The notes under the pieces: generated by a model | What the model was told of the DNA's origin: nothing | The model's database searches: none | Seen by the model: only the letters and a program-made list of their open reading frames with translations | DNA from: Myxococcales bacterium | GTDB lineage: Bacteria; Myxococcota_A; Polyangia; Palsa-1104; JAEUJZ01 | NCBI GenBank assembly: GCA_016794365.1 | Contig: JAEUKB010000093.1 | Coordinates: forward strand, 1-64,000 | DNA length: 64,000 bases | Direction of reading: 5' to 3' | Made by a program: the position numbers and the translations under genes | Shown here: positions 2,755 through 7,959 of the stretch, piece by piece | How positions within the stretch are numbered: position 1 is the first letter of the stretch | How the letters are laid out: each line of letters starts with the position of its first letter

Positions 2755-3492
2755 ATGTGGACTTCTCAGGCGCACAAGCCGCGCTCGCTCACCGGACAGG
2801 TCGTCGTGGTCACCGGCGGAGCGCGTCGCGTCGGACAAGCGATCTGCGAAGCACTGTGGTCAAGCGGCGCGCACGTTGTCATTCACCATCACGCATCGCA
2901 CGAGGCGGCAAAGGCGCTCGGCGATCGGCTCGGATCACGGGTGACGCTGGCGCGCGCGGATCTGCGCGATCGCGATCAGACCCGAGCGATGTTTGCCGAT
3001 CTGGCGACGCAGCTTGGCCGCATTGATGGGCTGGTGAACAGCGCAGCGGTGTTTGAAAAGACGCCGCTAGAGACGCTCCGCGATGAAGCGTGGGACGAGA
3101 TCTTGGCCGTGAACCTGACCGCCCCCAGGCGCTGTATGCAGCTTGCGATCGAGCACGGAGCCCAAGCGATCGTGAACATTGTCGATCTTGCGGCGCTGGC
3201 TCCGTGGCGAGGCTATGCGGCCTATGGCGTCGCCAAAGCGGGACTTTTGCAGCTAACCAAGATCGCCGCCAAAGAGCTGGCAGGTCGGGTTCGGGTGAGC
3301 GCGGTGGCACCAGGACTTGTGCTGCTGCCCGACGATGTCTCTGCGCAAGAGAGAGCCAGGCTGCTCGCCAAGCTACCGAACGGTCAGCCGGGATCGCCGC
3401 ACGATGTCGCGCGCGCGGTGCATTACCTGCTGACCGAGCCCTTTGTCACCGGCGTGTGTCTGCCGATCGATGGCGGCCAGAGCCTGGGCTAG
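2755..3492 (+). CDS. Short-chain dehydrogenase/reductase (pteridine reductase-like)
   Basis: A 245-residue classical SDR. It has a Rossmann TGGARRVG nucleotide-binding motif, a NSA motif (GLVNSAAVF) in place of NNAG, and the YGVAK catalytic pair. The C-terminal PIDGGQSLG is usual for the family. The arginines after TGG and the NSA motif recall pteridine/dihydromonapterin reductases (FolM, PTR1), which use NADPH, but substrate is not fixed by these motifs. Its stop lies about 40 bases from the convergent polB stop; the gap holds a 12-base tandem duplication (CAAGGCAGCTAC). Confidence 0.85.
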   Translation: MWTSQAHKPRSLTGQVVVVTGGARRVGQAICEALWSSGAHVVIHHHASHEAAKALGDRLGSRVTLARADLRDRDQTRAMFADLATQLGRIDGLVNSAAVFEKTPLETLRDEAWDEILAVNLTAPRRCMQLAIEHGAQAIVNIVDLAALAPWRGYAAYGVAKAGLLQLTKIAAKELAGRVRVSAVAPGLVLLPDDVSAQERARLLAKLPNGQPGSPHDVARAVHYLLTEPFVTGVCLPIDGGQSLG

Positions 3493-3534: not shown

Positions 3535-5859
3535 CTACAGCAGGCGAAGCTGCGGACTCGGCTTTTCCAAGCGCGAAAACGGCACGCCATGGTGCTGAAG
3601 GACCGGCTCGGCCACCGCGCGAACCTGCTTTTCAAGGTAGTGCGCGTAGTCGATCGGCTGCTGGCGGTGCTCGGGATGCTCGGGACCAGCGGTCGTGATC
3701 ACAAACGGAACCACACTGCCCGGCCACAGCCCATGACGCGCACCGACCACGACATGCGGCGCGTGCTTGGCCACATAGTCGCCGGGATCGCGGTGCAGGG
3801 TCTTGCGATACACCAGCTGGGCATCGAGCTTGCCCGCCAACAGCTCGGCGATCGTGCGCTCCAGGTACAGCGTGACCTGATCGACGGGCGCATTGGCAAA
3901 CAGCAGCGCATACAGGTGCTGCTGAACCCGCTTGCTCAGCTCGCTGACATCGCGTCGCACCGCTTCCAGGCCGACAAAGTGCAGCTTCCACTCGCCACTT
4001 TTCCAGATCATGCCCGCGTAGCGCTTGGCCGCGCCCTGTTCTTTGCCGCGCTGACGATGAAGCAAAAGCTGCTGATAGACCGAGTGCAGCGCCAGCTCGA
4101 TCCGGCTCTCGACGCGCCAGGTTTCGGCAATGTAGGACGACAGCTCGGCATTGAGCCGATTCAAAAGGGACTGACCAACGCGAAACAGCGACTCCGGGTC
4201 CGCGTGCTCATCCGGGCTGGCCAAGACAAACAAGCTGTCGGTGTCCCCGTACAAGACCCGATGTCCAGCGCGCTCGAGCCAGGCCTGCGACCACTTGAGC
4301 AGCTCACGACCGAAGCTGGTGACGGCATTGGCCAATTCGGGACGATGAAACCGACACGACGGACTCCCGAGCACTCCGTATAACGAGTTCATGAGCAGCT
4401 TGATTGCCTGGCTCTGCGCTTCGTGACCCTGGCTCTTGGCGGCGCTGCGCAGCGGCAGTAGCTGATCCAAGATGACGGTCAAGATGCCCCGCTGACGACG
4501 AAAGCGCGCGCCACTGGGGGCCACGATCGGATCGGACTCCCGATCGTCATCGGCAGCCATCAGCCCGAGCGGATCGATCTGAAAGGTCCGAATCACGCTT
4601 GGATACAGGCTGCGAAAGTCGAAGACCAAGACGTTGCGATGCAGACCGGGCAGAGGCGGCAGGATCTGACCGCCGACCACCGGCTCACCCGCTTCACTCC
4701 GCCTGTCAAAAGTCGGAGCCACATGGCCGCGCCGTCCCAGCTCGGTCAGATACAGGAAGTCAAAGGCCGCCACGCTCGCGGTGGCCCGATCGATCGGCAA
4801 GCCGGTCAGGCGACTGCGCTGCATGGCCAGATCGACCAGACCCGCCGTCTGAACCAGCCGCCAAAGCGCCCCGGCTTCGCGACCACAGCGCGCGATGACA
4901 TCATCACTTGGTGCGCTGGCTTCGCCGCGTGCCGCACCGCGCTCTCCTTCTAATGATGCAAGCAGGGCTTCATCGCCCCCGGTCCCTTTGATCAGTCGCC
5001 ACAGCGGTGCCACATCAAACAGCACCCGCCCCGCCAAGGAAGCCCGAGGAAGCGGACCGCGACCGGCGCTCGGCTGATAGTGAAGATCGCCCGGACCCCG
5101 CGCGAGCGGCAGCGACATCCGACAGCGCCGTGCCGACTCGCGCAGCAGCAGCAGATCTTCGCCCAGCAAGTTCCACCCCACGATGAGGTCTGGATCTTTG
5201 GTCACCAGCCGCTGAATCAGGCCCGAAAGGAGCGCGCGCTCATCGGCAAAGACGGTCGCATCGGGCACGTCCGCCACAGCCGGAGGTCCCAGCTGCCTGC
5301 GCAACAGCACCACGCCGTGGGCATCCGCAAGCGCCGCCGCCAGCAAGGTTCCATCGGGGGCCGCCTGGAGCCGCAGGGTCAGGTACGACAGCACCGGCAA
5401 GGCCGATCCGGGGGTCAGCTCTGGGTTTTCAAAGACCAGCGCCACACCGTCTTCAGCCACCCGTCCGCGCCGCTCGGGTCCGTGGATTTCGACGCTGGCA
5501 AACAGGCCGCGATCGATCAGGTAGCGCATGACCATGCTGACATCGGCCTCGAAGGTCACAAGCCCCGCCGCGTGCAGCCGATGGACAAGCGCCGCCGCTG
5601 CCGCCGGGGTTGCCAGCTCGACCCGACTGAGCGGCTCTCCCGCAAGCGATCGCCGGGTGGTGGGAAACAGCGTGGCACTCCCCGCCGCGATGCCGAGCAG
5701 CGCGTCCTTGTCATCCGATCGCACATAAAAGCAGGCGCGCTCCCGATCGTCTCGGACCAGGAACGTCTCACCCGTCACCAGCCGCCCGTACAGCAGCAGC
5801 ACAGGTCGCCCAGCCCAAAGACGCATGCTGGCCTGCAAGATAAAGCCTTGTCTGCTCAT
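3535..5859 (-). CDS. polB: DNA polymerase II (family B) with degraded exonuclease motifs
   Basis: A 774-residue family B polymerase, near the length of E. coli Pol II (783). The N-terminus MSRQGFILQ matches the MAQAGFIL start of Pol II, and a G-rich stretch precedes the ATG at 5859. Polymerase motifs are intact: DFRSLYPS (Asp414), KLLMNSLYGVLGSP, YGDTDS (Asp539, Asp541) and KRYAG. The 3'-5' exonuclease motifs are not. The place of the Exo I DIE triad, near residue 160, reads SYLTLRL. Exo II is GWNLLGEDL (Phe replaced by Glu), and the Exo III YxxxD region reads RCGREAG. In E. coli Pol II acts in SOS-linked bypass and fork restart. This version should polymerise without proofreading. Confidence 0.93.
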   Translation of the reverse strand: MSRQGFILQASMRLWAGRPVLLLYGRLVTGETFLVRDDRERACFYVRSDDKDALLGIAAGSATLFPTTRRSLAGEPLSRVELATPAAAAALVHRLHAAGLVTFEADVSMVMRYLIDRGLFASVEIHGPERRGRVAEDGVALVFENPELTPGSALPVLSYLTLRLQAAPDGTLLAAALADAHGVVLLRRQLGPPAVADVPDATVFADERALLSGLIQRLVTKDPDLIVGWNLLGEDLLLLRESARRCRMSLPLARGPGDLHYQPSAGRGPLPRASLAGRVLFDVAPLWRLIKGTGGDEALLASLEGERGAARGEASAPSDDVIARCGREAGALWRLVQTAGLVDLAMQRSRLTGLPIDRATASVAAFDFLYLTELGRRGHVAPTFDRRSEAGEPVVGGQILPPLPGLHRNVLVFDFRSLYPSVIRTFQIDPLGLMAADDDRESDPIVAPSGARFRRQRGILTVILDQLLPLRSAAKSQGHEAQSQAIKLLMNSLYGVLGSPSCRFHRPELANAVTSFGRELLKWSQAWLERAGHRVLYGDTDSLFVLASPDEHADPESLFRVGQSLLNRLNAELSSYIAETWRVESRIELALHSVYQQLLLHRQRGKEQGAAKRYAGMIWKSGEWKLHFVGLEAVRRDVSELSKRVQQHLYALLFANAPVDQVTLYLERTIAELLAGKLDAQLVYRKTLHRDPGDYVAKHAPHVVVGARHGLWPGSVVPFVITTAGPEHPEHRQQPIDYAHYLEKQVRAVAEPVLQHHGVPFSRLEKPSPQLRLL

Positions 5860-5966
5860 GGCCCCCCAGCCCCAGGCAAGTCGCCCCACGGACTCGCCCA
5901 CGTCACATGGTATCGCGACTTTGCGTCCGCTTGTCAGGCGCTACAGCTTGGCGCACAGTCTGCGCC

Positions 5967-6707
5967 ATGGACGCCGCCGCCGCGCAAAACCAAGAGCGCA
6001 ACCACGCCATCTACGAAGACCTGTGGACCCACTACGAGCTGTTCCCACACAGCGGCTGGACACACGCCTGGGCCGAGATCGAGCCGCTCTATCAGCCCAA
6101 CCGCACGCTGGAGATCGGACCGGGCATGTTCCCGCACGTTCCGATCGCCGGAACGCACTTTGTCGATCTGTCTCGTCATGCGCTGCGGGCGCTGTCCGAA
6201 CAAGGCGGCCTGTGCGCGGTGGCGACCACGCCCCTGCCCTACGAAAACGAGCGCTTCGATCTGGTCTGCTTGTTTGAAGTGCTCGAGCACGTCACCGAAG
6301 ACGAAGCGCTGCTCGTGGAGATCGCGCGGGTGATGTCGCCCGGCGGCCACCTGTTTATGTCGTGCCCGTGCAATCCCGACTACTTTACGTATTACGACAA
6401 GGTGATGGGCCACGAGCGCCGCTACCGTGCCGACGAGCTATCGGAGCGCCTGACGCGCGCGGGCTTCGTGATCGAAAAGGTCTGTCCTCGGCACGACCGG
6501 ATGGACGGCTGGTTTGGCGCGGTGTTCGGCTTCGGCACCAAGTTCCTCCCAGGCTTTACGGCGAGCATCGTGCGTCGCTATCTCCCCAAGGTCGCGGCCC
6601 TGCCCTGGCAGTGGTACGACGGGAACGATCTGTCGAAAGCGGAGTCGATGGGCGGGGTCACGCTGCGCGCCCGCAAGCTGCTTCCCGGTGAGCGGGCGAT
6701 GAAATAA
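5967..6707 (+). CDS. Class I SAM-dependent methyltransferase
   Basis: A 246-residue Methyltransf_11/23-type protein. Motif I is the variant LEIGPGMFP. FDLVCLFEVLEHV is the motif IV region, and MSPGGHLFMSCP the post-motif strand. Such enzymes transfer methyl groups from SAM to small molecules, lipids or sugars; the acceptor is not evident. The ATG at 5967 (MDAAAAQNQ) was chosen over 5907, which would sit only about 48 bases from the divergent polB start and adds an unlikely leader. A cupredoxin lipoprotein follows 9 bases downstream, suggesting co-transcription. Confidence 0.85.
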   Translation: MDAAAAQNQERNHAIYEDLWTHYELFPHSGWTHAWAEIEPLYQPNRTLEIGPGMFPHVPIAGTHFVDLSRHALRALSEQGGLCAVATTPLPYENERFDLVCLFEVLEHVTEDEALLVEIARVMSPGGHLFMSCPCNPDYFTYYDKVMGHERRYRADELSERLTRAGFVIEKVCPRHDRMDGWFGAVFGFGTKFLPGFTASIVRRYLPKVAALPWQWYDGNDLSKAESMGGVTLRARKLLPGERAMK

Positions 6708-7159: not shown

Positions 7160-7186
7160 CGGAGCGGCGCTCCGCAGCGTTTTTTT
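7160..7186 (+). terminator. Intrinsic terminator after the cupredoxin gene
   Basis: A perfect stem CGGAGC / GCTCCG with a three-base loop (GGC) at 7160-7174, followed after five bases by seven T at 7180-7186. It lies 53 bases past the cupredoxin stop on the same strand. It is also the first unit of the repeat array. Confidence 0.7.
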
Positions 7187-7475
7187 GGGGGGAAACCAGC
7201 GGAGTCGCTCCACCGCACCGTTTTTTTTCGGGGGAAACTGGCGGAGTCGCTCCACCGCACCGTTTTTTTTCGGGGGAAACCGGCGGAGTCGCTCCACCGC
7301 ATCGGTTTTTTTCGGGGGAAACCGGCGGAGTCGCTCCACCGCATCGTTTTTTTTTCGGGGGAAACCGGCGGAGTGGCGCTCCGGCTGCGTTTTTTTGGGG
7401 GGAAACCTGCGGAGTCGCGCTACGGCATCGATTTTTTTCGGGGGAAACCGGCGGAGTGGCGCTACGGCATCGGTT
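7161..7475 (+). repeat. Tandem array of eight terminator-like units
   Basis: Units start at 7161, 7201, 7243, 7285, 7327, 7370, 7411 and 7453 (last partial), with lengths 40, 42, 42, 42, 43, 41 and 42. Each reads roughly GGAGTCGCTCCACCGCACCG, then 7-9 T, then CGGGGGAAACCGGC. The GC-rich head can fold (GGAG/CTCC, or CGGAG/CTCCG in the unit at 7370), so each unit looks like a hairpin plus T-run on the plus strand. The length changes are not multiples of three, which argues against coding. Confidence 0.9.
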
Positions 7476-7513
7476 TGAAGGGTTCGTGCGGGGGATGGTT
7501 TGGTGGGGGTCTT

Positions 7514-7622
7514 GGGGATCTTTGGGGAGAAGTCACGGCGCGGGTCCCCCTTCCCTGCGACGCTTTTTCCATCGGCCCTTACGGCCCGCTGAAAAAAGGT
7601 CTCCGGTCGGCCCACGCCTAAT
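7514..7622 (+). repeat. 109-base dispersed repeat, copy A
   Basis: Nearly identical to 7851-7959. It carries CTTTTTC ... GAAAAAAG arms flanking GGCCCTTACGGCC, so it can form a hairpin with T-rich and A-rich sides, like a bidirectional terminator. Only a few bases differ between copies A and B, mainly around the C-rich stretch. Confidence 0.9.
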
Positions 7623-7689
7623 GTGTGCGCATACAGATCGCTGCGTCGTCGGCCCACGCCTAATGTGTGCGCATACAGATCGCTGCGTC
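7606..7689 (+). repeat. Exact 42-base tandem duplication
   Basis: The units 7606-7647 and 7648-7689 begin GTCGGCCCACGCCTAATGTG and are identical by eye. A third partial unit (GTCGGCCCACGACCAAT) follows at 7690. The first unit overlaps the end of repeat copy A. Perfect identity suggests recent slippage. Confidence 0.9.
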
Positions 7690-7717
7690 GTCGGCCCACG
7701 ACCAATCTGTGTAAGCA

Positions 7718-7850: not shown

Positions 7851-7959
7851 GGGGATCTTTGGGGAGAAGTCACGGCGCGGGGCCCCCTACCCTGCGACGC
7901 TTTTTCCATCGGCCCTTACGGCCCGCTGAAAAAAGGTCTCCGGTCGGCCCACGCCTAAT
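7851..7959 (+). repeat. 109-base dispersed repeat, copy B
   Basis: Second direct copy of the element at 7514-7622. It ends 28 bases before the macroglobulin stop codon, on the side where minus-strand transcription would leave that gene, so it may terminate that transcript. Confidence 0.9.

Follow-up and report, generated by a model that had tools for sequence, protein, structure and literature searches.

The Pol II group of B-family DNA polymerases (bacterial PolB G1) has been described as having conserved exonuclease sites, with inactive ones placed in G2/PolB2 (Timinskas et al. 2026; PMC12926913), and a 2020 survey likewise reported loss of ExoI and ExoIII for B2/G2 (PMC7544198). A gene from a Myxococcales bacterium raises the question of whether a Pol II lineage has lost proofreading while keeping its polymerase and, if so, what the resulting enzyme might do. 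The gene lies within the first 64,000 nucleotides of contig JAEUKB010000093.1 (assembly GCA_016794365.1), a stretch referred to here as the window. It occupies positions 3535 to 5859 of the reverse strand, starts with an ATG at 5859, and encodes a full-length Pol II-type B-family polymerase of 774 amino acids, the sole PF00136 protein of the genome. The coordinates, strand, and Pol II identity given in an earlier note on this DNA were confirmed; the best sequence match was E. coli DNA polymerase II (phmmer E value of ~1e-92), with an identity of ~31%. The architecture of N-terminal domain, DnaQ-like exonuclease domain, and B-family polymerase domain is present. The polymerase domain (residues 363 to 774; positions 3538 to 4773, reverse strand, as are all features of the gene given below) has a strong Pfam match (139 bits), and its catalytic motifs are all intact, as had been claimed: motif A DFRSLYPS (D414; 4597 to 4620), motif B KLLMNSLYG (residues 487 to 495; 4375 to 4401), motif C YGDTDS (residues 537 to 542; 4234 to 4251), and KRY are each found in the MAFFT alignment. 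At the C terminus, QLRLL (residues 770 to 774; 3538 to 3552) aligns with QLGLF of E. coli and, by sequence, is a beta-clamp-type motif through which the protein may bind the clamp.

A MAFFT alignment that included E. coli Pol II and relatives allowed a residue-by-residue comparison of the exonuclease site, for which E. coli numbering is used. The region holding the exonuclease motifs (E. coli 147 to 367) spans positions 4774 to 5400, and conserved residues flank each motif in the alignment. At ExoI (5362 to 5382), L160-T-L-R163-L-Q165-A166 replaces (V/L)S(I/L)D(I/L)ET, such that the DIE of E. coli (D156 to E158) is R163-L164-Q165, amounting to D156R and E158Q. The earlier note had recognized the ExoI loss but had taken LTL for the aligned residues; that reading is three residues out of register, LTL corresponding to the preceding VSI/LSI stretch and RLQ being the true counterpart. 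At ExoII (5155 to 5178; G228-WNLLGED235), FD has become ED, with the Phe-to-Glu change correctly identified (F228 = E234) and the catalytic D229 retained as D235. At ExoIII (4846 to 4908; helix of residues 318 to 338), a deletion of 11 residues leaves the Tyr of YxxxD without a counterpart, and D335 is replaced by Glu (E328); the motif, thought to have been lost entirely, has lost its Tyr and still carries one acidic residue. Acidic residues at ExoI and ExoIII had been named beforehand as what would argue against a dead site, and the alignment contains none at ExoI and this one Glu at ExoIII. In the exonuclease-deficient mutant of E. coli Pol II, both ExoI acids are reported to be changed (D155A/E157A, numbered without the first Met), and both of these acids are absent here by nature. 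The remaining ExoII Asp and the Glu at the ExoIII position mean that residual metal binding is possible in principle, but we are nearly certain that exonuclease activity has been lost. The Pfam exonuclease domain match is below threshold (17.1 bits versus a cutoff of 23). The earlier note judged the exonuclease scaffold to be still present, and its core strands and helices are found in a confident AlphaFold2 model of the protein (pLDDT, 90.4; pTM, 0.87), for which the best PDB matches in Foldseek were E. coli Pol II ternary complexes (TM, 0.87 to 0.88).

The same changes are found in a second species of the genus (locus L002, genome G002), whose protein is 74% identical, has R, Q, E, and E at the same exonuclease positions, and also lacks the ExoIII Tyr. 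Pol II proteins were sampled from the Myxococcota (284 genomes, 47 with a match) and from the phyla to which L008 (398 genomes, 77 with a match) and L007 (396 genomes, 39 with a match) belong, together with pattern matches, and the comparison set comprised 157 usable Pol II proteins from the three phyla, with the window and L002 pair not counted. D156, E158, D229, and D335 are all kept in 156 of these 157. The exception (L172, genome G1011) is an otherwise intact Pol II in which only D335 is changed, to Ala (ExoIII, YDFTAARL). Because the changes recur in the second species and nearly all other Pol II proteins keep the four acids, the loss of the site is neither chance nor a reading error. Of the columns that are at least 95% conserved among the other Pol II sequences, 28 lie in the exonuclease domain and 76 in the polymerase domain; 13 and 8 of these, respectively, are broken in the pair, the polymerase departures being mostly mild. 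No other sequence has more than 5 exonuclease columns broken. We found no report of an exonuclease-dead Pol II in the literature searched, and one may still exist.

FastTree was used for phylogeny. With the exonuclease domain left out, the pair was nested in an enclosing clade (support of 0.998) that contains 26 Pol II proteins, chiefly from Acidobacteriota and gammaproteobacterial metagenome-assembled genomes (MAGs), and was separate from the remaining Myxococcota copies. D156, E158, D229, and D335 are kept in all other members of this clade. Since the pair nests among exonuclease-intact Pol II proteins even when the exonuclease domain is omitted, the loss is derived; it is best placed in the common ancestor of a single myxobacterial genus, and the position of the pair suggests that the gene was likely acquired horizontally. 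When the tree was fixed, the stem leading to the pair was 2.39 substitutions per site long in the exonuclease domain, 0.88 in the polymerase domain, and 0.52 in the N-terminal domain. Its exonuclease/polymerase ratio of 2.72 ranks third among 82 branches, for which the median is 0.97. Between the window protein and L002, which form a single species pair with a dS of ~1, dN/dS is 0.26 for the exonuclease domain, 0.15 for the polymerase domain, and 0.19 for the N-terminal domain; in exonuclease-intact pairs, exonuclease dN/dS is mostly about equal to or below that of the polymerase domain. These values indicate that the exonuclease domain changed rapidly on the stem and is now somewhat relaxed and that all domains are still constrained by purifying selection. 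A long stem burst followed by constraint, with an intact polymerase, therefore points to a Pol II lineage that lost proofreading and kept its polymerase. The dead proofreading site proposed in the earlier note is well supported by the sequence, the independent second species, fast evolution restricted mainly to the exonuclease domain, and the confident model, which retains the exonuclease fold.

The window protein shares the domain order of E. coli Pol II (polB; G1) and has the same fold (TM, 0.87), polymerase motifs, and C-terminal clamp-type motif, and the tree places it among Pol II sequences, but it differs in its lost exonuclease active site, in that no LexA box was found, and in its low identity. 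The closest proteins are the exonuclease-intact Pol II proteins of Acidobacteriota and gammaproteobacterial MAGs (L003 to L014 and others), which are 41 to 45% identical and share the N terminus and a C-terminal QL motif but keep DIET, FD, and YxxxD. PolB2 (G2; e.g., Sulfolobus Dpo2) is a B-family polymerase in which ExoI is likewise not conserved and ExoIII is missing (PMC7544198). Motif C of PolB2, however, carries a single conserved Asp, and PolB2 belongs to a different clade, whereas the window protein has a complete YGDTDS and, in a tree that contained no B2 sequences, Pol II ancestry. The best matches of the window protein are all Pol II, and its likeness to PolB2 is at most functional. 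One stated feature of G1, a conserved 3'-5' exonuclease active site (PMC12926913), is absent from the window protein, which nevertheless descends from G1 and is therefore an exonuclease-dead variant of Pol II rather than a PolB2. Eukaryotic Pol zeta is also a B-family polymerase with an inactive exonuclease domain and extends past lesions (PMC7544198); it is multisubunit and of another subfamily, and the comparison is one of analogy.

We consider it probable, though well short of certain, that the gene descends from a proofreading Pol II that lost its exonuclease in the genus ancestor, that its polymerase is under selection, and that it now serves as a non-proofreading polymerase in gap filling or in translesion synthesis or extension. 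The description of the enzyme in the earlier note as naturally error prone or bypass specialized appears to be a reasonable one; what speaks against it is that neither an SOS box nor an adjoining mutasome partner or repair gene was found and that DinB and ImuA-ImuB-DnaE2 are encoded elsewhere in the genome. E. coli Pol II holds the primer near the polymerase site, which favors lesion bypass (PMC6153641). It bypasses abasic sites and AAF adducts, its proofreading corrects replicase errors, and its exonuclease-deficient form produces a distinct mutational signature in vivo (PMC11253446). In the proposed scheme, which starts from the replacement of the ExoI metal ligands by Arg and Gln and the disappearance of the ExoIII Tyr, the exonuclease fold would remain as a scaffold, and the clamp would load the polymerase at a stalled or gapped primer end. 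As nothing would be excised, this end would remain at the polymerase site, and the enzyme would extend mismatched or lesion-facing termini rather than idle in cycles of insertion and excision. Greater extension of such ends is what would be expected from the lack of an exonuclease, and the protein probably makes more errors in copying or elongates ends that are mispaired or damaged. More specifically, though only tentatively, the lineage may have become a dedicated extender polymerase without proofreading, a Pol II parallel to PolB2 in archaea and Pol zeta in eukaryotes, whose mutagenic role would lie outside the LexA regulon. PolB2 has been shown or proposed to act as an extender in translesion synthesis (PMC7544198), and exonuclease-dead archaeal PolB2 is described as a translesion extender (PMC8764526). 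If the extender role is correct, the window protein would join PolB2 and Pol zeta as another B-family example of exonuclease loss giving rise to a damage-tolerant polymerase. A natural Pol II lineage without proofreading but with its polymerase kept is also a ready-made experiment on the purpose of Pol II proofreading.

The putative role would be exercised beside DinB and ImuA-ImuB-DnaE2 of the same genome, which encodes, in addition to DinB, DnaE1, LexA, and an ImuA-ImuB-DnaE2 cassette (ImuA being named by its place before ImuB and by its own sequence). LexA sites, through which Pol II is under SOS control in E. coli, were searched using the M. xanthus SOS box consensus CTRHAMRYBYGTTCAGS (PMC9705874). 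A perfect Myxococcus-type box lies across the imuA start codon of the cassette (L101:3257-3274; G000 contig 56), and lexA itself has a site with 3 mismatches. No box with 3 or fewer mismatches was found near the polymerase gene in either species, although the M. xanthus consensus, with 3 mismatches even at lexA, may not fully fit. The order OMP-FtsY-SDR-Pol-methyltransferase-cupredoxin-macroglobulin is common to the window and L002; the immediate neighbors are a pteridine reductase-like SDR oxidoreductase (2755 to 3492, forward strand) and a divergently transcribed class I methyltransferase (5907 to 6707, forward strand), both syntenic in L002, and no repair gene or mutasome partner is present among the adjoining genes. 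The polymerase gene is absent from a third genome of the genus (G001), but this was rejected as a loss and is uninformative, since the contig there breaks within the adjacent SDR gene, and orthologs of the methyltransferase and of the macroglobulin are missing as well. The interval between the cupredoxin and macroglobulin genes of the window contains repeats: a tandem array with a 42-base period at 7172 to 7476 (7.3 copies, 88% matches), a second with the same period but a different unit at 7606 to 7711 (2.5 copies, 95%), and a 109-base direct repeat (7514 to 7622 and 7851 to 7959, 98%).

The main alternative is that proofreading was lost without any bypass role, the enzyme performing gap filling or ordinary repair in which proofreading is dispensable and the loss reflecting neutral drift. 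We regard this as rather unlikely. The lack of a detected SOS box and of neighboring repair genes is consistent with it, as are the exonuclease dN/dS, which is only mildly raised, and the finding that exonuclease sites are altered in about half of the bacterial Pol I enzymes (PMC12926913). However, the near-universal retention of the site in Pol II, with one partial exception in 157, suggests that proofreading normally matters in this group, and the stem burst followed by constraint looks more like changed function than slow drift. Gene decay, in which the exonuclease would degenerate first and the polymerase next, is improbable. The scores of the window protein and its counterpart in the other species on the NCBIfam Pol II equivalog model (544 and 557 bits) could be read as decay, as both fall under the cutoff of 570 while two exonuclease-intact relatives score 738 and 941 bits, but the frame is open throughout in both species (>770 codons), all polymerase catalytic residues are kept, the polymerase dN/dS is low, and synteny is complete. 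Annotation by whole-protein cutoffs can overlook such variants. Still less probable is a remodeled exonuclease that is active through other residues; D235 of ExoII and E328 are present in both species and could be candidates, but both ExoI ligands are gone (one to Arg), the ExoIII Tyr is deleted, and nearly half of the conserved exonuclease positions are changed. An assembly, frame, or alignment artifact, conceivable because these are metagenome-assembled genomes and an apparent ExoI loss elsewhere proved to be a frameshift, is very improbable given two separate assemblies of different species that agree at all sites, open frames, and conserved motif flanks.

That frameshift concerns L068 (G017), which was rejected as a second ExoI loss because ALDLETD is present in another frame. 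Loci L179 and L231 (G1058) were rejected as exonuclease dead because of a scaffold fault, the open reading frame containing a stretch of N and the N-terminal half being located elsewhere; in L231 (G1058:C1), the Pol II gene is split by the N run with its N-terminal half ~3 Mb off on the opposite strand, which may reflect faulty scaffolding or an inversion breakpoint. L004 has His for the ExoIII Tyr and is missing ~30 residues before ExoIII, with all four acids retained. Three proteins from the phylum of L007 (L232, L233, and L234; genomes G776, G763, and G735) were rejected as exonuclease-dead Pol II and excluded from the count of 157 because they are distant PolB (254 bits to NF004421) rather than Pol II of this group. 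They have a complete motif C, no acidic ExoI residues, and no aligned ExoIII Asp and possibly represent another exonuclease-dead PolB group.
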